Shown one piece after another: positions 3,702-24,296 of a stretch of DNA of 32,863 bases. Each line of letters begins with the position of its first letter. Positions within the stretch are counted from its first letter, which is position 1. The notes beneath the pieces are model-generated. The model saw only the letters and a list, made by a program, of their open reading frames with translations, ran no database searches and had not been told where the DNA came from. A program made the translations under genes and the position numbers. Origin of the DNA: Desulfobulbaceae bacterium (lineage in GTDB: Bacteria > Desulfobacterota > Desulfobulbia > Desulfobulbales > VMSU01); assembly GCA_015231515.1 (NCBI GenBank), contig JADGBM010000026.1:1-32863 (forward strand), read 5' to 3'.

Positions 3702-5243
3702 CTATCGACCAAATACCGGCACTGAAGGGAACAGTGAGCTATCCGTATGAGGAATAAATTTTGATCCGGAAAAACGCATCATAAACTCCTGGTTCACGTT
3801 GAGTTCAACATAAGTGATTTTCTGCATAATCATCTGACAGCGCTCTCTTGCTGAAGAATGCAGTAATACTTGCTCAGCACCGGCCAGAGAACTATTGCCA
3901 ATCGCCTCGTAGGTGGACAGCGGCAGATCCGGTAACATCCCCAGTGTAACAGCCTTCCCAGGATCTATATGCCGGCCGAAAGCCCCGGCGACGTAAATCC
4001 TGGCCAGATCGGAAAAACTTAAACCAACCTGCCCAAGCAAGGTAGTTAAAATTGCGTACATGGCTGCCTTGGAGCGCATCATTGCATCAAGATCAACCTG
4101 GGATATTTCCACAGCTTTGTGCCCAGCACAATGTTCAGCTGCTACAACTGTGTATGTGGGTGTATCACCAGCCACATAGAGCCGCCCCGGAGCCGAACCG
4201 GCTCGAAACTTGCCCCGCAGATCAATAATCTGGGCAAGGTAAAGCTCCGCCACCAGATCAATAATTCCAGAACCGCATATCCCACGCGCCGGCTCATCAG
4301 CAATGGTCGTATATGCCACCTCTTTGGTCGACGGATCAATACAAATATGCTCTATAGCGCCCGGCCCGGCCCGCATCCCCATGCTTGCGACCCCGCCTTC
4401 AAGTGCCGGCCCGGCGGCTCCGGCGCAGGCGATCAACCAATCCTTATTGCCGACCACAACCTCCGCGTTAGTACCGACATCAATCAGCATGGATATCTGG
4501 TCGCCAGTATCCATACCACTCGATAAAATCCCAGAGATGAGATCTCCGCCAAAATAGCTGCCAACGCTTGGCAATATAATAACCGGCGCTGAAGCTGAGA
4601 CCAAAAGGCCCAATTCTCCAGCCATAAAACTGTCTGGTGCATTTATAACAGGTATGTATGGCTCTCGACAGATGTTGTAGGGGTCAAGGTTCAGAAAAAA
4701 ATGGATCATGGTGGGGTTGCCGGACACACTTAAGCCCCTGATCTGGTCAACAGGCACGCCCGCCGACTTTGCCAACTCACCTGCCAACTCGTTTATCGTA
4801 CGAATTATTTTTTTATGAAGATCATTGAGACCATCAGCACGCCCGGCATAATGAATTCGGCTGAGAATGTCATCACCACAGGAAATCTGAGAGTTCTCCT
4901 TATTGGCCCAGGCCAGACGGTTCCCAGTAAAAAGGTCAATCAACGTCGCCTCAAGATGAGTTGTTCCTAAATCAAGCGCCATTGCCGGCAGCACATCCGG
5001 CAGATCAGAGAGCAGATCAACCAGCTCCAGCCGCCCTTCACGCTCATTGACAATGGCAGAACCAGAAAATTTAGCTTGACGAAAACGGCGTGACACAGTA
5101 GTGACCTGAGCCATAGGAACAACAAGTCGCCCAGTGCCTGTTTTCTCCTCCACAGCCCTTTTCAGGCGGTCGATATCGGCACTGTTGTCATGAAGGCCTG
5201 GTGGTTCCGCCGATATTGGAATACATTGAACAATCGCTGTCAT
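3702..5243 (-). CDS. RACE-like ASKHA ATPase (DUF4445) lacking the N-terminal ferredoxin domain
   Basis: This 513-residue protein matches reductive activators of corrinoid-dependent enzymes (RACo/RamA type), which use ATP hydrolysis to drive one-electron reduction of Co(II) corrinoid to Co(I). It shows a middle domain (about 20-85), the phosphate-binding motif ALDLGTTHLEA, SCGDDILSRI, SGNPTM, LPSVGSYFGGD, IDVGTNAE, a glycine-rich AGAAGPALEGG and ARGICGSGIID, and a late VAGAFGRHI. Family members are usually 600-650 residues with an N-terminal [2Fe-2S] domain; this one has none, and no cysteine cluster at its N-terminus. An in-frame TGA three codons before the ATG rules out an N-terminal extension. 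An electron-donating partner is therefore probably encoded elsewhere. No corrinoid protein or methyltransferase is adjacent, so its target is unknown. Confidence 0.85.
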   Translation of the reverse strand: MTAIVQCIPISAEPPGLHDNSADIDRLKRAVEEKTGTGRLVVPMAQVTTVSRRFRQAKFSGSAIVNEREGRLELVDLLSDLPDVLPAMALDLGTTHLEATLIDLFTGNRLAWANKENSQISCGDDILSRIHYAGRADGLNDLHKKIIRTINELAGELAKSAGVPVDQIRGLSVSGNPTMIHFFLNLDPYNICREPYIPVINAPDSFMAGELGLLVSASAPVIILPSVGSYFGGDLISGILSSGMDTGDQISMLIDVGTNAEVVVGNKDWLIACAGAAGPALEGGVASMGMRAGPGAIEHICIDPSTKEVAYTTIADEPARGICGSGIIDLVAELYLAQIIDLRGKFRAGSAPGRLYVAGDTPTYTVVAAEHCAGHKAVEISQVDLDAMMRSKAAMYAILTTLLGQVGLSFSDLARIYVAGAFGRHIDPGKAVTLGMLPDLPLSTYEAIGNSSLAGAEQVLLHSSARERCQMIMQKITYVELNVNQEFMMRFSGSKFIPHTDSSLFPSVPVFGR

Positions 5244-6918: not shown

Positions 6919-7674
6919 ATGAATATAGATTTCAGTGAATTAAACAGTGTTGGCATAGTTGGCATGCCCCCCGTTGCCGTGATCCAGCAACTCAACAACA
7001 ACCAGATTACCATCCATGACTTAGACGCCAAGTTGGTTCCGCAAAGTATTGACGGAACCTCTCCCTTCCTGCCAAGAGTTTATTGTGCAATTTTACGTAC
7101 CGTTGTTCTTAACGCCATGCATCTTGATCTTGATGCAATTTTTATCGATGTCGGCCCAGGCAAATGCGACAGTGCGTTGCACGTTTCGACCATACTCCAA
7201 GCGCTCTTAAACATTCCGGTTATCCGCACCAGAAACATTGATACCGCAGCCTATGGCACCCCGATCTCCCTGACCAGACTTGACTTAACCGCTAAATTTC
7301 TACAAATCACCGAGGGTGTCAAATCAACAGAGCCTTTTTCGAAACAGGAGCCTTGTGAGGCTCGAGCCGGTTTCTGGGGAGTCCCGCCCAGAGACTTTGC
7401 CGTTCTTGCCCCTTTTCCTGACTCAACCCATATCTTCGGTTGGACACGCTGCATGGAGAACAAAACTCCAGCCGATGAAGAACTGGAAAAACTCGTCAAT
7501 CCGGAGATCCCAACCGTTTTCTTTGCCCAGTCTTTTTGCGCCAAAACCGCGTTGGGGAAATTTTTAGCTGACCAACACCCGCAGGCCCTTTTTGTCGATG
7601 TGGACTTTCACACAGGGAACAGTGCCAAGGCCAAAATCCAGGCCTTTCTCGAACTGTCCGGGGCACTGCGATGA
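6919..7674 (+). CDS. Compact 2-hydroxyacyl-CoA dehydratase subunit-like protein (uncertain)
   Basis: This 251-residue soluble protein is not a family I can name with confidence. Its layout resembles a shortened HgdA/HgdB-type subunit (2-hydroxyacyl-CoA dehydratase or benzoyl-CoA reductase fold). A segment with GKCDSALHVSTILQALLNIP (81-100) resembles the family's CD-x-x-x-L-P element. The C-terminal TVFFAQSFCAKTALGKFL (199-216), then FVDVDFHTG and a final KIQAFLEL, resembles the usual closing Cys/LDGD/RIEAF region. Cysteines at 56, 83, 146, 178 and 207 could bind an Fe-S cluster; CEARAGFWG (146-154) is distinctive. Its stop overlaps the start of an HgdC-like ATPase as ATGA, which supports a component/activator pair. 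The ATG at 6919 was chosen because a start farther upstream would overlap lptG by about 180 bp. No Shine-Dalgarno is evident. Confidence 0.75.
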   Translation: MNIDFSELNSVGIVGMPPVAVIQQLNNNQITIHDLDAKLVPQSIDGTSPFLPRVYCAILRTVVLNAMHLDLDAIFIDVGPGKCDSALHVSTILQALLNIPVIRTRNIDTAAYGTPISLTRLDLTAKFLQITEGVKSTEPFSKQEPCEARAGFWGVPPRDFAVLAPFPDSTHIFGWTRCMENKTPADEELEKLVNPEIPTVFFAQSFCAKTALGKFLADQHPQALFVDVDFHTGNSAKAKIQAFLELSGALR

Positions 7675-8351
7675 TCCTCGGTGATTTCGGCACATCATAC
7701 TGCAAGTTCTGGGACATCTCCTCTCCCGACAATCAACCTGCAATTGTACCCACCAAGGAACTGCCGAGCACTATAGCGGTCGACATTGCCACAGGTCATA
7801 ACGGCAAGCGTTTTTGCGGGGAGTATATTAATGAGCTTATCGCCCTGGCACGTGGAGGGGAAGCCCTGATTGACGAAAAGGATTATGTCTTGCTCGATTG
7901 CGGCAGCCGTGATATCAAATTCATCACGATGCAGAATGGGGTGCTGAAAGATATGGACTGGAACACCGAATGCGGTGCCTCCATGGGTTTTACAATAGAG
8001 CTGCTTGAGAAATACTACAATCTCGATTACCAAAAGATGGCCGCCCCTCTGAGAACGTTCTCAATTACCTGCGGGGTTTTGGGCATGAGCCACATTTTTG
8101 ACGCCGTCATCGCCGGCACACCGGTCGCTGACGCTGTTGCCAGTTTCATCAAGGGTATCGCAGTTAACGCCTATCGTTTTGCCGGATCACCTGAAAAGAT
8201 GTATCTTTCCGGAGGGCTCTGCGATAATCCCATCTTCGTTAACAGCTTCCCCTGTAAAATCATCCCCTTAGGCCGCTTCACCTTACTCAAAGGCCTTGAG
8301 CATTATGCTAAAAAGCTTTCCCCCCTAAACAACACAAAAGGTCTAAAATGA
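7671..8351 (+). CDS. HgdC/BcrA-like ATPase activator (ASKHA, BadF/BadG family)
   Basis: This 226-residue protein aligns over its length with activators of 2-hydroxyacyl-CoA dehydratases. Those are homodimeric ASKHA ATPases with one [4Fe-4S] cluster between subunits that fire low-potential electrons into a partner on ATP hydrolysis. Matching elements are GDFGTSYCK (the GIDIGSTTTK position), ATGHNGKRF (ATGYGR), LLDCGSRDIKFI (VIDIGGQDxK), NTECGASMG (NDKCAAGTG), ITCGVLG (STCTVFA) and LSGGLCDNP (TGGVAxN). The two cluster ligands are kept as C101 and C134. It is slightly shorter than the usual 260 residues. Start and stop both overlap neighbours as ATGA, so production is translationally coupled to the upstream compact protein and the downstream radical SAM enzyme. 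The physiological substrate is unknown. Confidence 0.85.
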   Translation: MILGDFGTSYCKFWDISSPDNQPAIVPTKELPSTIAVDIATGHNGKRFCGEYINELIALARGGEALIDEKDYVLLDCGSRDIKFITMQNGVLKDMDWNTECGASMGFTIELLEKYYNLDYQKMAAPLRTFSITCGVLGMSHIFDAVIAGTPVADAVASFIKGIAVNAYRFAGSPEKMYLSGGLCDNPIFVNSFPCKIIPLGRFTLLKGLEHYAKKLSPLNNTKGLK

Positions 8352-9763
8352 TTTTTCTAGTAAATCCTTATATCACAAGTGCCGAACGCTATGGAAAAGA
8401 TATTGGTGACATTGGCGGCCACCAGATGCCTCTGGGGATCTTTTATTTAGCGGCTGCATTAGAAAAAGCCGGCGAAGATGTTTGCGTAATGGATTGTGAA
8501 TCTCTCAACGTCACCCATGAAGAGTTCATTTCTAAAGTAAAAGAATTAAATGGGGTGATAGTTGGCATAACATCCACAACTGTTGGATTCTACCGAGCAC
8601 GTTCCCTTGCAGAAATGCTGCGCAAAACAATTCCCGGCATCCATATTATTATTGGTGGCCCTCACATGAGTGCCATGCCTGAACAAACTATGCAAACCGG
8701 TGTATTCGATTATGGCATAACCCACGAAGGTGAAACACCGCTGACAAAACTTGTATCCTTTTTACTGCATCAAAAAGGCGAACTAGCAAATGTGCCAAAT
8801 CTCTATTATTTAGAAAACGGCATTCAGAAAACTGGCCGTATGGAATATATTCAGGACATGGATTCAATTCCATTGCCAGCCCGGCATCTCAGTAAAGATC
8901 TCTCAATCTACAAACCACCGGTTGGTGCATATCGAGAGAAGCCAGTGATGAACATGCTCACCAGCAGAGGATGCCCATACCACTGCATATTCTGTGACAA
9001 CAATACCTTTGGCAGGAAAACACGATTTTTTTCTGCTGAATATGTTGTAAATGAGATAAAACAGCTCATCTTTACCTACGGTGCCAAAGAAATCGCATTT
9101 CTTGATGACACTTTTGTCCTTGACAAAAAAAGACTACGAAAAATCTTCGAGCTTCTCGATGCAGACAATATCCATTTCCCTTGGACCTGCATGACACGTG
9201 TAAACAACCTTGACTTCGAAACTTTGGAATTCATGTCCAACCATGGTTGTTGGCAAATTAGAATTGGTATTGAGAGTGGTAACCAGAAAGTTATCGATTT
9301 TATCAAGAAGGGTATCACTCTTGAACAAGTCCGGAATGTGGCAAATTGGAGCAACTCATTAAGAATTAAAGTGTCAGGCTTTTTTATCATCGGACACCAC
9401 ATTGACACCCCCAAAACTATTCAAGACACTATTGAATTCGCCCTTTCCATACCCCTGACCGACATTATCGCCACAATAAACACGCCAATTCCCGGAACCG
9501 AATCCTATAAACTTGCAAAACAGTATGGTGACTATCAAGAGGACGACTGGCTTTCCCTTAACTACTGGACCCCCATTTTCGTGCCCCACGGCTTAACCAA
9601 GGAGTTTATGCTTAAAAAGCAAGTCGAAATGTACAGCAGGTTTTACCGGCGTCCTGCAATTCTGCTGAAACAGCTTCAAAAAATTAAGTCATGGCAAGAG
9701 TGCAAGCTGTACATACATAACGCATATTTAGGAGCCAAATTTCTTATTAAAGGTAACAACTAA
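8348..9763 (+). CDS. B12-binding-domain radical SAM protein (class B-like)
   Basis: This 471-residue protein has an N-terminal cobalamin-binding Rossmann domain (about 1-150, with a GGPHMSAMPE segment and EGE near 127) and a radical SAM TIM barrel starting at about 200. The barrel carries the CxxxCxxC cluster motif at C209, C213 and C216 (SRGCPYHCIFCDN). Later segments ELA-type IAFLDDTF, RIGIESGNQKVIDFIKKG, GFFIIGHH and TPIPGTESY are typical of this superfamily (BchE, HpnJ/HpnP and related enzymes). The C-terminal 80 residues are Lys-rich and variable. Members methylate unactivated carbon or rearrange rings in lipids, pigments and natural products; the substrate here is unknown. The start overlaps the stop of the HgdC-like gene (ATGA). 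The gene is more AT-rich than lptG upstream. Confidence 0.9.
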   Translation: MIFLVNPYITSAERYGKDIGDIGGHQMPLGIFYLAAALEKAGEDVCVMDCESLNVTHEEFISKVKELNGVIVGITSTTVGFYRARSLAEMLRKTIPGIHIIIGGPHMSAMPEQTMQTGVFDYGITHEGETPLTKLVSFLLHQKGELANVPNLYYLENGIQKTGRMEYIQDMDSIPLPARHLSKDLSIYKPPVGAYREKPVMNMLTSRGCPYHCIFCDNNTFGRKTRFFSAEYVVNEIKQLIFTYGAKEIAFLDDTFVLDKKRLRKIFELLDADNIHFPWTCMTRVNNLDFETLEFMSNHGCWQIRIGIESGNQKVIDFIKKGITLEQVRNVANWSNSLRIKVSGFFIIGHHIDTPKTIQDTIEFALSIPLTDIIATINTPIPGTESYKLAKQYGDYQEDDWLSLNYWTPIFVPHGLTKEFMLKKQVEMYSRFYRRPAILLKQLQKIKSWQECKLYIHNAYLGAKFLIKGNN

Positions 9764-9775
9764 AAATGTAGCGCT

Positions 9776-9805
9776 TTGTATTGCATTGCATTGTATTGCA
9801 TTGAT
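9776..9805. repeat. Pentanucleotide tandem repeat (TTGCA/TTGTA)
   Basis: Six consecutive 5-bp units lie in the 70-bp gap before the membrane glycosyltransferase gene: TTGTA, TTGCA, TTGCA, TTGTA, TTGCA, TTGAT. They end 28 bp before the ATG at 9834. Short tandem repeats in this position can change promoter or leader spacing by slippage; that role is inferred. Confidence 0.7.
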
Positions 9806-9833
9806 TATTTTCTAAAAGCCAACAACTCTCCAT

Positions 9834-11627
9834 ATGATAAATATTTTCTTAACTACAACCTGTCTTGGTGGGTACATATTCGCCTCCAGGCAATTATTTA
9901 ATATACCATTTCGCTTTGCCCCTTTCTTCAGTGTATCCTTTCTAGGGGTATTACTTTTTCTTCTTGGGCTAACCAACCAACTGGAGACAGGAAGCTATTT
10001 TTTAATCACCCTAGGGTATATTTTTTTTGCCGCTTCGGCTTTTCACCTCATCCGCTCCCCCCTTAAGTATAAAGACATCACAACTTCACAATTAGTCTTG
10101 TATCTTCTGCTCATTGTATTCGCCTATCTTTACACAATCGACATGCCATTTTCAGTTATTGACGACTATGTCTATTGGGGGGTGATCGGGAAATATCTCC
10201 ACATCACCAATCATTTTCCTGACAGCCAGACGAGTATCATGCCCCGCCACCTTTCATACACTCCTGGCACCTCTCTCATACACTATTTTTTCTTTAAGGT
10301 TACTAGAGAGTACTCTCCAGCACTCTCCTATTTTGCACAAAATATCATGTTTTTTTCGGCAATTTTTGTTGTGACAAAACCACACAGATTAAAGTTATCA
10401 TTACTTCTTCTCGGCATAACCATAATTCTAGCAACCCTGCAATTTGGAAGTATTTTAGCCAAATTATCACCAGATTTCTTACTCGCCACCTATTTCGGGG
10501 CTATGCTCTGGATCATTTTTAGTACCGAAAAAACGTCGACAAAATTACTGACTATGTCAATGCCACTTCTCCATCTTTACCTATTGAAAGAAATCGGTAT
10601 CTTTCTGAGTTATTCCCTTCTGGCAATAAGTTTTTTTATGTTTGTAAGAAAAGTTCCGCCCCGGAATATTGCAAAAATAACAACATCTATTCTGGCAATT
10701 GCAGGAAGCGTTTTCTTTGTGAAATTTTCGTGGCAATCCTATTGCCATGGAATGGGTTTCACTCAAATCACAACTGCAGTCAACAAGCATAGCATAATCA
10801 ACAGCCTTAAAATATTTTCTAACGAGACTATTTGGCAAGGATTCACCATATTTATCAAAAGCATAACTATTGGCCCAGCAGACCGACTAAACCTTCCTTT
10901 TTTATTCTGGTACATTCTGCTTTTCTTTTTATGGAAAAATATTATACGAGAATCGACTACTTCTCGAAAAATTGACTATCAAGTTTCACTCGCTTTAATG
11001 AGCTTGTTTTTTCTAGTCTACCTTTCAATGCTCTATTTCATGCAAATTATTGTTTTTAATGTAGGTGGGAGTTTTGACCATACACTTGGCATGACTCGCT
11101 ATGTAAACATCTATCTTGGAGCGATTATTTTCTTTACATTAGTGACTTCTTTAGGACGGCACCTTTCCATAGAAAAAGCCCTTAAAACCACATGGATTAT
11201 GTTTTTTTGTCTTTTAATCACACTTTTTTTGGTCGTTTCTAGAAATAAACGATTAGAGCAAGACGCTCCTGATTCAATGTCTGAAAAAATTGCCAATCAA
11301 ATCATACAAAAAATTACCCCCAGCGCTGATGTAAAAATTTATGTTATTCCTGGAAATGGCGAGAACCTATTGGGCCTTCGTCTACTTTACCACCTTCAAC
11401 CCGCTAGAGTTAGCTACAGCTCTGCTCCAGCAACGGAGGAGTCACTGCTTAGGAACTTAACATCATATGACTATTGTCTCTTGTACAACGTATCGCCCCA
11501 GGTTACCGAATGGATAGAAAAAATAACCAACCGAAAATTTGCAGGCCTAGAGTTTTATAAAATTGATTACATCAACATAGATGGACAGAATAGCGATTCC
11601 AGCATTAAGCTTCAGAGGCTTTTCTAA
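9834..11627 (+). CDS. Multi-pass membrane protein, probable GT-C-type glycosyltransferase
   Basis: This 597-residue protein has roughly eleven or twelve hydrophobic helices in its first 460 residues and a soluble C-terminal domain of about 120 residues. The first large extracytoplasmic loop carries an acidic pair in a DDYVYWGVIGKYL context (about 110-122), the typical placement of the catalytic Asp in GT-C enzymes such as ArnT or PMT that use polyprenyl-phosphate sugars. A late FDHTLGMTRYVNIYLG segment also fits this fold. No named family was recognised, so the assignment rests on topology and motif placement. The downstream gene encodes a DPM1-like synthase of polyprenyl-phosphate sugars, a natural donor-making partner. 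Codon use and base composition are strongly AT-rich compared with the flanking metabolic genes. Confidence 0.8.
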   Translation: MINIFLTTTCLGGYIFASRQLFNIPFRFAPFFSVSFLGVLLFLLGLTNQLETGSYFLITLGYIFFAASAFHLIRSPLKYKDITTSQLVLYLLLIVFAYLYTIDMPFSVIDDYVYWGVIGKYLHITNHFPDSQTSIMPRHLSYTPGTSLIHYFFFKVTREYSPALSYFAQNIMFFSAIFVVTKPHRLKLSLLLLGITIILATLQFGSILAKLSPDFLLATYFGAMLWIIFSTEKTSTKLLTMSMPLLHLYLLKEIGIFLSYSLLAISFFMFVRKVPPRNIAKITTSILAIAGSVFFVKFSWQSYCHGMGFTQITTAVNKHSIINSLKIFSNETIWQGFTIFIKSITIGPADRLNLPFLFWYILLFFLWKNIIRESTTSRKIDYQVSLALMSLFFLVYLSMLYFMQIIVFNVGGSFDHTLGMTRYVNIYLGAIIFFTLVTSLGRHLSIEKALKTTWIMFFCLLITLFLVVSRNKRLEQDAPDSMSEKIANQIIQKITPSADVKIYVIPGNGENLLGLRLLYHLQPARVSYSSAPATEESLLRNLTSYDYCLLYNVSPQVTEWIEKITNRKFAGLEFYKIDYINIDGQNSDSSIKLQRLF

Positions 11628-11637
11628 TTTAAAGCAA

Positions 11638-12339
11638 ATGAATAGAGTTTCAGTAATAATTCCAGCATATCAACCAGGTCCGGAACTCGTAAAGACAGTC
11701 GAGGGCCTTAGGGGTAAATCAGACAACTTAGAGATTATCGTTGTTAATGACGGGTCAGCGCCATTGTATAATGACATGTTCAATCAAGTAATTAATTATG
11801 ACGTTCATTTGGTCACCTATTTACAAAACCTTGGGAAAGGTGCGGCGCTTAAAAAAGGATTTGAATACTGGCAAACTCACTTTTCAAATGCACAAGTTGG
11901 TGTAGTAACAGCTGATGCCGATGGGCAACATCATGTTGATGATATTCTTCTGCTGGTCAAAGCCATGCAAAATGACTCAAATTCGTTACACCTAGGAGTA
12001 CGTCAACTCAGCGCAGAAGTTGTTCCATGGCGTAGCCAACTAGGTAACTGGTTATCTGCCCTTATTTTTCAGTCTGTATCAAAGATTCAAATTATTGACA
12101 CACAAACAGGATTAAGAGGAGTGGGCACAAAATTACTCACGCACACGAAAAACTGTAAGGCAACCGGATATGATTTCGAGATGGAAATGCTTCTTATAGC
12201 TGTAAAAAACAATATTCCAATACGCCAACACCCAATTAGAACACTTTATCTTGCCGGGAACACGTCATCTCATTTCAAGCCAATCAAGGACTCTTGCAAG
12301 GTATATAAGGTTTTCTGGAACCATCTGATCCATAAATAA
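11638..12339 (+). CDS. Family 2 glycosyltransferase, DPM1-like polyprenyl-phosphate sugar synthase
   Basis: This 233-residue cytoplasmic GT-A enzyme has the full GT2 signature: VSVIIPAYQPG at the N-terminus, VVNDGS, NLGKGAALKKGF, the metal-binding DADGQHHVDD, and DTQTGLRG. LGKGAAL and the TGLRG block are typical of dolichol/undecaprenyl-phosphate mannose or glucose synthases. It probably charges undecaprenyl phosphate with a sugar used by the membrane GT-C-like enzyme encoded just upstream. No C-terminal membrane helices are present. The start at 11638 was chosen because the fold begins there and leaves a 10-bp gap; the in-frame ATG at 11581 would overlap the upstream gene by 47 bp. The sugar is unknown. 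Confidence 0.87.
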   Translation: MNRVSVIIPAYQPGPELVKTVEGLRGKSDNLEIIVVNDGSAPLYNDMFNQVINYDVHLVTYLQNLGKGAALKKGFEYWQTHFSNAQVGVVTADADGQHHVDDILLLVKAMQNDSNSLHLGVRQLSAEVVPWRSQLGNWLSALIFQSVSKIQIIDTQTGLRGVGTKLLTHTKNCKATGYDFEMEMLLIAVKNNIPIRQHPIRTLYLAGNTSSHFKPIKDSCKVYKVFWNHLIHK

Positions 12340-22605: not shown

Positions 22606-23484
22606 TTAATTGCTAAATCTACCTGACAAGCCTGGATGACAGCGGCTACAGCTATTCATTGGAAATGCAACTGTCATATGGCACATGCCGCAATAATAGC
22701 CATAAAGGTTTTTTTCCTTATCAAATTCTTCGGTACCAAAACTTTCAATTTTAAACACGTCTGGGTGGCAATTCGAACAGTCAAGCCAGGCTATGTGCTC
22801 CTTATGTGGAAACGAGACATGAATACGCGAGACGTTTGTATACCACTTTAAAGGTTCATACAAATTAGAAGGCAAGGGTAACGATGTCTGCTCATCACCA
22901 GCGCTCAGAATATTCTTTGGCCTGATAACAGATGTCTTGATAGCGTTTACCCAGTCTATCTTATCCCCGTCGGTCAGCCGAGGGAGGTCAGCCGCCAGTT
23001 TTTCATATTCAGGACTGGAATAGACGGCGTTCAATTTTTGTTTACTGAGGTGACACCGATCACAAGCAAACTCAACTGAAAAAGCAATCTTGCCATTATG
23101 GCAGGCCCCGCAAAATCGCCCATCAAGATAATCCTCCCGGGTGATACCACTCTCTCCCTTTTTCATGCTGAACTCAAGCTCAACATGACATACGCGGCAG
23201 GTATACTCGACCCTGTGGGTGGCATGTGAAAAAACAACCGGATCCACCCCCCTCTTTTCAGTTCGACCCCGCATAACTAAAACACCATAACGATCAGGGC
23301 GCCCGTTATACATAGCCATATGCAGCAAATTATCGAGTTCGGCACGAGAAAGAGGAGGTTTGCTATATTTCTTGTGCCGAATAACTGCACCCGGTGGCCT
23401 CTGATCGATGAGTTCATCGATACAGCCACCCGAAGTGAGAAGAATTAAAAAAATGCCGACACAGCTGCAAATATACCTCAGCAC
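22606..23484 (-). CDS. Six-heme c-type cytochrome, probable lipoprotein
   Basis: The 293-residue product has six CxxCH heme sites (CRVCH, CGACH, CDRCH, CSNCH, CGMCH, CSRCH) in two three-heme halves. Each half begins with an F-x-H-x-x-H segment that can supply distal ligands, as in c3/c7 cytochromes. The N-terminus is a hydrophobic stretch ending LLTSGGC, a plausible though atypical lipobox, so the protein is probably exported and may be membrane-anchored. The GTG at 23484 was chosen: it leaves a 29-bp gap after the upstream cytochrome and puts the signal at the N-terminus. The longer frame from 23550 starts at a TTG inside the neighbour with no ribosome-binding site. It is a paralogue of the upstream gene. 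Electron partners are not evident. Confidence 0.85.
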   Translation of the reverse strand: MLRYICSCVGIFLILLTSGGCIDELIDQRPPGAVIRHKKYSKPPLSRAELDNLLHMAMYNGRPDRYGVLVMRGRTEKRGVDPVVFSHATHRVEYTCRVCHVELEFSMKKGESGITREDYLDGRFCGACHNGKIAFSVEFACDRCHLSKQKLNAVYSSPEYEKLAADLPRLTDGDKIDWVNAIKTSVIRPKNILSAGDEQTSLPLPSNLYEPLKWYTNVSRIHVSFPHKEHIAWLDCSNCHPDVFKIESFGTEEFDKEKNLYGYYCGMCHMTVAFPMNSCSRCHPGLSGRFSN

Positions 23485-23513
23485 TCCAACTTTTCTCTCC
23501 TGCTCTCGCACCG

Positions 23514-24293
23514 TTACTGACTCACAGGCGTTGAGTGACAATTGTTGCAATCATTAAGAGGAAAAGCGACACTACCATGGCATATACCACAGAATTTTCC
23601 TTCCGTGATCTCCTTCATGCTCATTTCCGTTTTACCTGTTTCAAGTGCAAAAGGTTCAGGATGGCACATCCCGCAGCCATTCCAGGCCACATGCAGCTTA
23701 TGGGAGAAGATAATTCCCGGCAACCCGGGCAGTTTTGGTGCAATTGGTTCATCCCTGAGATTACTTACCTTGTTCTCAGAATCAAACGTTACACCCTCAA
23801 TATAGTCTTTAACAACTATGGTACCTGCCGCTTCAGCCTGGTTCCAGTCAATCTTGTTGCCGTAGTTGGCATTAGGCATATTCTTCTTAAATTCGAAAAA
23901 CGCCCTCTTGGCACGGCGTTCTTTCTCTTTGGCATCATTGGTATCCTTAGGATGGCATTTTGAACACTCACTGATATCAAAGGACTCTTTCCCATTATGG
24001 CAGGTACCACAATAGCGACCATCTTTGTTATCTTCCTCCATTATTTCAGTCTCTCCTGCCATTTCAAATTCGATATCAACATGGCATAAACGGCATGAAT
24101 GCTTTGCCCTGTGGTTCCAGTGGCGAAAAACGACAGGCATTTGCCCTTTGTTTTTAACCATTTTATCCAAAACAACTTCACCATATTCATGACTTTTCTT
24201 CACTTGAGCAGTACTATCAATTGGCAGCAGCCCGAGAACTGCAAGAACCCCAAAAAACATCCACAATCCGTATCTTTTAATTTTTTCTCCCAT
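23514..24293 (-). CDS. Periplasmic six-heme c-type cytochrome (c3/c7-like)
   Basis: This 259-residue protein has a cleavable signal peptide (KRYGLWMFFGVLAVLGLL, predicted cut after STAQ) and six CxxCH sites (CRLCH, CGTCH, CSKCH, CGMCH, CGICH, CNNCH). They fall into two three-heme modules separated by a charged linker. Conserved FRHWNH and FSHKLH segments before each module give likely axial histidines. The same order of motifs (YCGTCHNG and SxxFPLNDCNNCH) occurs in the next gene, showing duplication. The second ATG (24293) is preferred to the first (24296) because AAAGGAG lies 7 nt from it. It likely carries electrons in the periplasm; donor and acceptor are unknown. Confidence 0.88.
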   Translation of the reverse strand: MGEKIKRYGLWMFFGVLAVLGLLPIDSTAQVKKSHEYGEVVLDKMVKNKGQMPVVFRHWNHRAKHSCRLCHVDIEFEMAGETEIMEEDNKDGRYCGTCHNGKESFDISECSKCHPKDTNDAKEKERRAKRAFFEFKKNMPNANYGNKIDWNQAEAAGTIVVKDYIEGVTFDSENKVSNLRDEPIAPKLPGLPGIIFSHKLHVAWNGCGMCHPEPFALETGKTEMSMKEITEGKFCGICHGSVAFPLNDCNNCHSTPVSQ

Positions 24294-24296
24294 CAT

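Follow-up and report, generated by a model that had tools for sequence, protein, structure and literature searches.

In a stretch of 32,863 nucleotides from a Desulfobulbaceae bacterium (GCA_015231515.1, contig JADGBM010000026.1, positions 1 to 32,863, forward strand; hereafter the window), we identified a pair of overlapping genes, denoted P1 and P2, whose products are likely to make up a self-contained, two-part ATP-driven electron-transfer system belonging to the BCR/HAD/DCCP superfamily. In this likely reading, the target of the system is something other than an acyl-CoA, and the gene that follows the pair, P3, is no component of it. The reading builds on the computed folds, the cysteines, a missing domain and the co-inheritance of the two genes, from which we infer the type of cluster, a transfer of electrons from P2 to P1 driven by ATP, and the kind of target. 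Few enzymes attain the potentials at which the ATP-driven reductases of this superfamily work, and CoA thioesters are the substrates of most members with an assigned role.

P1 and P2 were found to be a true unit, which is strictly co-inherited in a class of sulfur bacteria as well as in two small related groups. Their distribution was determined in 58 relatives of the window genome, 296 genomes of the phylum, 160 genomes of the class, and two further small classes (8 and 5 genomes). In the class, P1 and P2 were each present in 125 of the 160 genomes, and the genomes listed were the same; in the phylum set, each was present in the same 19 of 296. P1 was also detected in 53 of the 58 relatives and in every genome of the two small classes (8/8 and 5/5). 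The count in the relatives had hinted at a universal housekeeping gene, which was ruled out by the class-wide count (125/160), since whole clades, complete genomes included, lack the pair. Among 110 loci examined, P2 lay directly after P1 and in the same direction in every locus reaching far enough. Overlapping frames were the commonest arrangement, with overlaps of 4 bp in 50, 14 bp in 22 and 1 bp in 14 of 109 pairs. The exceptions to adjacency were G007 and G363, which are probable contig breaks, and G388, with about 3 kb between the genes. The titles of 80 named P1 loci were mostly Desulfobulbaceae or Deltaproteobacteria, and the organisms included Desulfobulbus, Desulfurivibrio, Desulfocapsa, and the cable bacterium Electronema.

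One genome was found to contain two complete pairs (G016:C27 and G016:C33). At two loci (G006:C61 and G371:C1), P1 is split into two overlapping frames while P2 is intact, possibly through a frameshift or an assembly error. A search of plasmids gave no match, and nothing relevant on such a pair in Desulfobulbia was found in open-licence papers.

P1 is predicted to be a protein of the HgdA/HgdB fold in a compact form. The AlphaFold2 model (46 sequences; pLDDT 88.4, pTM 0.85) contains two Rossmann-like domains according to DSSP (residues 10-133 and 150-247), and both alpha/beta domains of the HGD-D / HgdB fold are present in it. All Foldseek matches of the model with E<=0.001 were MbdN, HadBC, BzdN or DCCP chains. 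With VIA-align, the highest scores were obtained for HadBC (3o3n, Z 14.7), DCCP (7yzm, Z 14.3), and BzdN (8s02, Z 14.2); across HadBC, BzdN, MbdN, and DCCP, the Z scores were 11-15 over about 230 residues, against 7.6 for the best unrelated fold. In one profile-profile comparison, P1 was collinear over 245 columns with DCCP-like proteins taken together with BzdN, a HadBC subunit, and MbdN (probability 59%, E 9e-5), and no significance was reached when only close DCCP homologues were compared. PF06050 (HGD-D) gave sub-threshold matches in 18 of the 57 aligned P1 members (best E 9.3e-5). The scores seen for individual members were 15.0-17.5 bits against a cut-off of 28.4, and where coordinates were listed, the match spans the part of P1 that holds C56 and C83. 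Searches with the window P1 against Pfam, NCBIfam and PDB sequences returned no match, nor did the P1 family profile against PDB. A preliminary description of this DNA had likened P1 to a shortened dehydratase/reductase subunit with five cysteines, which agrees with the predicted fold and the sub-threshold PF06050 matches. It had also named an unrelated fold of P1 as one outcome that would speak against it; structure prediction gave the HgdA/HgdB fold.

P2 is an HgdC-like activase. TIGR00241 matched 43 of the 45 P2 members (best 1.1e-12), and PF01869 matched 33. The P2 profile found HgdC (1hux, 3.2e-10) and DCCP-R (7yyl, 7.3e-10) in PDB. The AlphaFold2 model of P2 (pLDDT 90.8) has the ASKHA fold of the activase type, with VIA-align scores of Z 21.4 for MbdQ and 21.2 for DCCP-R and Z 19-21 across MbdQ, DCCP-R, HadI, and HgdC; the next family, the pantothenate kinases, reached Z 16. 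The two cluster cysteines that an activase carries per protomer are both found in P2, where C101 and C134 are invariant in all 45 rows of the alignment. The HgdC plan with these two cysteines, read from the sequence earlier, is thus supported by TIGR00241, by the PDB profile matches and by the fold, and the notion of an ATP-driven reductase pair stands with the fold of P1 and the activase character of P2. The profile searches that had been proposed matched members of both families (PF06050 below threshold in 18 of 57 P1 members, PF01869 in 33 P2 members), but neither of the window proteins.

The window genome also encodes, elsewhere, a DCCP-like protein of the conventional kind together with an activase of its own (G000:C8:32931-34777; see also L167, L181, L213), and P1-P2 is therefore an additional system. 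The gene before this other locus encodes a membrane polyferredoxin-like protein, and L168 and L177, from further genomes of the order, have the same upstream neighbour.

We then analyzed the cysteines of P1. P1 contains five cysteines, at positions 56, 83, 146, 178, and 207. Four of them (56, 83, 178, and 207) are invariant in the 57 sequences, and C146 is 94% conserved. The four were present in all full-length P1 sequences examined, two outlying classes included, while C146 is missing from P1 of one outlying class. In BzdN, the [8Fe-9S] cluster is held by Cys36/73/100/263/293/327, and in BzdO, a [4Fe-4S] cluster is held by three cysteines (PMC11971306). According to the profile alignment, P1 keeps the three proximal cluster cysteines of the HGD-D / HgdB family (C56, C83, and C207), and C36 of BzdN is without a counterpart. 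The site of C178 is the sole remaining connection from strand 2 of the C-terminal domain to the next helix, and C178 is the counterpart of either C263 or C293 of BzdN, one only.

Two parts of BzdN were found to be absent from P1. Residues 156-227 of BzdN form a three-helix intermediate domain that takes part in binding the CoA tail, and in BzdN/BzdO this domain and the N-terminal helix make up a bundle that occupies the interdomain groove and is part of the CoA channel (PMC11971306). When the 251-residue model was compared with BzdN, P1 lacked both the three-helix middle domain and the N-terminal helix part. It is chiefly this loss that suggests that the target of P1 is probably other than an acyl-CoA thioester, a view that draws on the anatomy of the model.

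A mechanism can be proposed on this basis. P2 would be a dimer, by homology, with one bridging [4Fe-4S] cluster held by C101 and C134 of both protomers. It would bind ATP and dock on P1, and ATP binding and hydrolysis would drive the transfer, by which P2 would inject one very-low-potential electron into the Fe-S cluster of P1. C56, C83, and C207 would hold this cluster in the space between the two alpha/beta domains, and C178 may serve as a fourth ligand. P1 may then act on a small molecule that reaches the open groove, or may hand the electron to a partner protein.

Several points weigh against this proposal. P1 is without two of the six ligands of the double-cubane cluster, having four invariant cysteines instead of six. 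The P1 family stays below the curated PF06050 cut-off, and the window P1 has no PF06050 match at all. The window P2 is without a PF01869 match and scores 38.3 bits with TIGR00241, against a curated cut-off of 125.4. Finally, the loss of the middle domain makes CoA substrates less likely rather than impossible.

Table 1 Coordinates of the P1-P2-P3 genes, their overlap, and the conserved cysteine codons in the window.
Feature	Position	Strand	Length	Description
P1	6919..7674	+	251 aa	Compact two-domain HgdB/DCCP-like protein; presumed Fe-S reductase or electron-transfer component
P2	7671..8351	+	226 aa	Short HgdC/DCCP-R-like ASKHA ATPase (activase)
P3	8348..9763	+	471 aa	B12-binding radical SAM protein
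ATGA overlap P1/P2	7671..7674	+	4 bp	Couples P1 to P2; read from the sequence
P1 Cys56 codon	7084..7086	+		Invariant; aligned with BzdN C73 and the LPRNxC motif of DCCP; predicted proximal cluster ligand
P1 Cys83 codon (GPGKCD)	7165..7167	+		Invariant; aligned with BzdN C100 / TTCD motif; predicted proximal cluster ligand
P1 Cys178 codon (GWTRC)	7450..7452	+		Invariant; in the strand-helix connection that carries the distal-cubane ligands C263/C293 in BzdN
P1 Cys207 codon (FAQSFC)	7537..7539	+		Invariant; aligned with BzdN C327; predicted proximal cluster ligand
P2 Cys101 codon	7971..7973	+		Invariant; corresponds in the alignment to the first HgdC cluster cysteine (NDKCAAGTG)
P2 Cys134 codon	8070..8072	+		Invariant; corresponds in the alignment to the second HgdC cluster cysteine (STCTVF)

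The three open reading frames and the two 4-bp ATGA overlaps of the preliminary description were confirmed in the sequence, the second overlap joining the frames of P2 and P3 in the window. For P1, an in-frame start farther upstream is possible; its relatives begin near the same place as the start given here (e.g. L041, MERVGIVGVPP).

To place the pair, we compared it with characterized systems; its mode of action is probably that of the BCR/HAD/DCCP superfamily. One role outside CoA metabolism is that of DCCP, by which small molecules are reduced in vitro. P1-P2 resembles DCCP/DCCP-R (6eno, 7yyl, 7yzm) in having one reductase-type subunit with one dedicated ATPase, in the two alpha/beta domains of P1 (Z 14.3), and in the match of P2 to DCCP-R (Z 21.2). 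Unlike DCCP, P1 has 251 residues rather than about 420, has neither the N-terminal part nor the helical middle domain, and carries four cluster cysteines instead of six. The class I benzoyl-CoA reductases BzdNOPQ and MbdONPQ share the fold of P1 (BzdN/MbdN) and of P2 (MbdQ), whereas P1-P2 has no second catalytic subunit, no CoA-binding bundle, and a single activase gene. With HgdABC and HadBCI, the pair shares the folds of HadBC and of HgdC/HadI, and the proximal cluster and both activase cysteines are aligned; it differs from them in its single P1 subunit without a middle domain and in P2, which is about 45 residues shorter (226 vs 270-276 aa).

Two further members of the superfamily have roles outside CoA metabolism. 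PlsAR plasmalogen synthase is an ATP-driven reductase that acts on phospholipid and makes plasmalogens (PMC10191378); by its description, the activation and the reduction/dehydration domains are combined in PlsA/PlsR, which sets it apart from P1-P2. The other is the 4-thio-UMP desulfidase TudS, a one-domain enzyme that, as P1 does, represents a shortened relative of the same scaffold (PMC11971306). The P1 model differs from it in keeping both domains, and P1 occurs with P2. To our knowledge, no ATPase partner of TudS is known. The pair is set apart from each characterized family because it lacks the middle domain and a second catalytic subunit, has four cysteines against the six of the double cubane, and scores below the cut-offs.

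Other explanations of the pair were considered. It is possible, if unlikely, that P1 is an electron relay or a maturation factor, with a cluster fully ligated by the protein (C56, C83, C178, and C207) and the electron from P2 passed on to a partner protein docked in the open groove. The presence of exactly four invariant cysteines, also in sequences from both small outlying classes, would fit such a role, as would the absence of the groove-filling helices. However, no candidate partner was conserved beside P1-P2 outside the order in the neighbourhoods examined, and the pattern of co-occurrence rules out acetyl-CoA synthase as a necessary partner and the RACo-like protein without an Fe-S domain, described below, as a strict one.

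It is quite improbable that P1 is a conventional acyl-CoA dehydratase or benzoyl-CoA reductase in a shortened form. The fold is the same and HadBC is the top VIA match, but the known members are heterodimers with a CoA-binding helical domain, and P1 is a single gene without that domain. In the neighbourhoods examined, a single P1-type gene was found beside P2, without two different catalytic subunits. There is likewise little probability in sulfur chemistry like that of TudS, in which a [4Fe-4S]/[4Fe-5S] cluster of P1 would abstract sulfur from a thiolated compound. TudS, a relative with one domain, is built on the same cluster scaffold (PMC11971306), and the hosts of P1 are, by organism titles, mostly sulfur-metabolizing bacteria; against this, a paper cited in PMC11971306 calls desulfuration by TudS non-redox in its title, and P1 is strictly tied to an activase-type ATPase.

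The genes upstream of P1 offered a further candidate. A RACo-like ASKHA protein is encoded at 3702-5243 on the minus strand of the window; it has the linker, middle, and C-terminal RACo domains and is without the N-terminal [2Fe-2S] domain. P1-P2 might act together with this protein in the activation of a corrinoid or of acetyl-CoA synthase, which we regard as very improbable. The short RACo-like gene is a common upstream neighbour of P1 that is kept in most of the order, and the two well-complete genomes without P1 among the 58 relatives are also without it. However, in genus g14, where P1-P2 is kept, acetyl-CoA synthase (cdhC) was found in none of 16 genomes and the short RACo was missing from all four genomes checked, and acetyl-CoA synthase is present in many genomes without P1-P2. 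A tie of the pair to acetyl-CoA synthase was therefore rejected as a misfit of the phylogenetic profile, and a strict tie to the short RACo, though suggested by the neighbourhood, was rejected because genomes keep P1-P2 without it. Moreover, crcB and lptG lie between the RACo-like gene and P1, which points to general synteny. A second, longer RACo is encoded elsewhere in the window genome (G000:C72).

The downstream gene P3 matches B12-binding and radical SAM models, in line with its earlier description as a cobalamin-dependent radical SAM enzyme; the best NCBIfam model, HpnJ, is far below cut-off. P3 lies beside P1-P2 in the window only, among the 110 loci. Its nearest relatives in the 58 genomes are 33-35% identical, occur in 2 of the 58, and are on contigs other than that of P1. 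The GC contents of P3 and the next two genes are 0.42, 0.38, and 0.40, compared with 0.46-0.51 for the upstream genes, and no homologues of those two genes were found in the other fetched neighbourhoods. This low-GC module (8348-12339, plus strand) comprises P3, a membrane protein of 597 residues for which Pfam gave no significant match, and a glycosyltransferase of family 2. Based on neighbourhood, distribution, and GC composition, P3 is most likely part of a separate, probably acquired, lineage-specific surface-glycan module, and the P2-P3 overlap is most likely local. That the pair activates P3 or acts together with it, as the ATGA overlap of P2 and P3 in the window genome might suggest, is hardly credible, and the trio was rejected on these same three grounds. 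The proposal of the three genes as one unit thus gives way to the pair, which occurs in 125 class genomes, and the idea of an activator dedicated to a B12 radical SAM protein fails by the measure its proposer had set, since the trio is not conserved together.

A lipid or envelope substrate had also been suggested, from lptG upstream and glycosyltransferases downstream. This hint carries little weight: within the order, the gene upstream is usually lptG, but lptG is absent from that position in the cable bacterium loci and in the two other classes, and the glycosyltransferase belongs to the low-GC module of P3. Farther along the window, two adjacent open reading frames with multihaem c-type motifs were found at 22606-24296 on the minus strand, the first of which matches cytochrome c7.

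Returning to the two-component system of P1 and P2, we tentatively suggest, at somewhat less than even confidence, that it is one of the smallest ATP-driven reductases in the BCR/HAD/DCCP superfamily and forms a separate branch without the CoA-binding middle domain. In sulfur bacteria of the Desulfobulbia type, cable bacteria included, it may supply electrons of very low potential to a non-CoA target, perhaps a protein. A compact and strict pair that is without the CoA-binding domain, is conserved in most of a class, and scores above no curated cut-off suggests a further use of the chemistry of this superfamily. The pair is small enough to be purified as two proteins for direct assay, and the clades without P1-P2 provide a natural comparison for finding its target.

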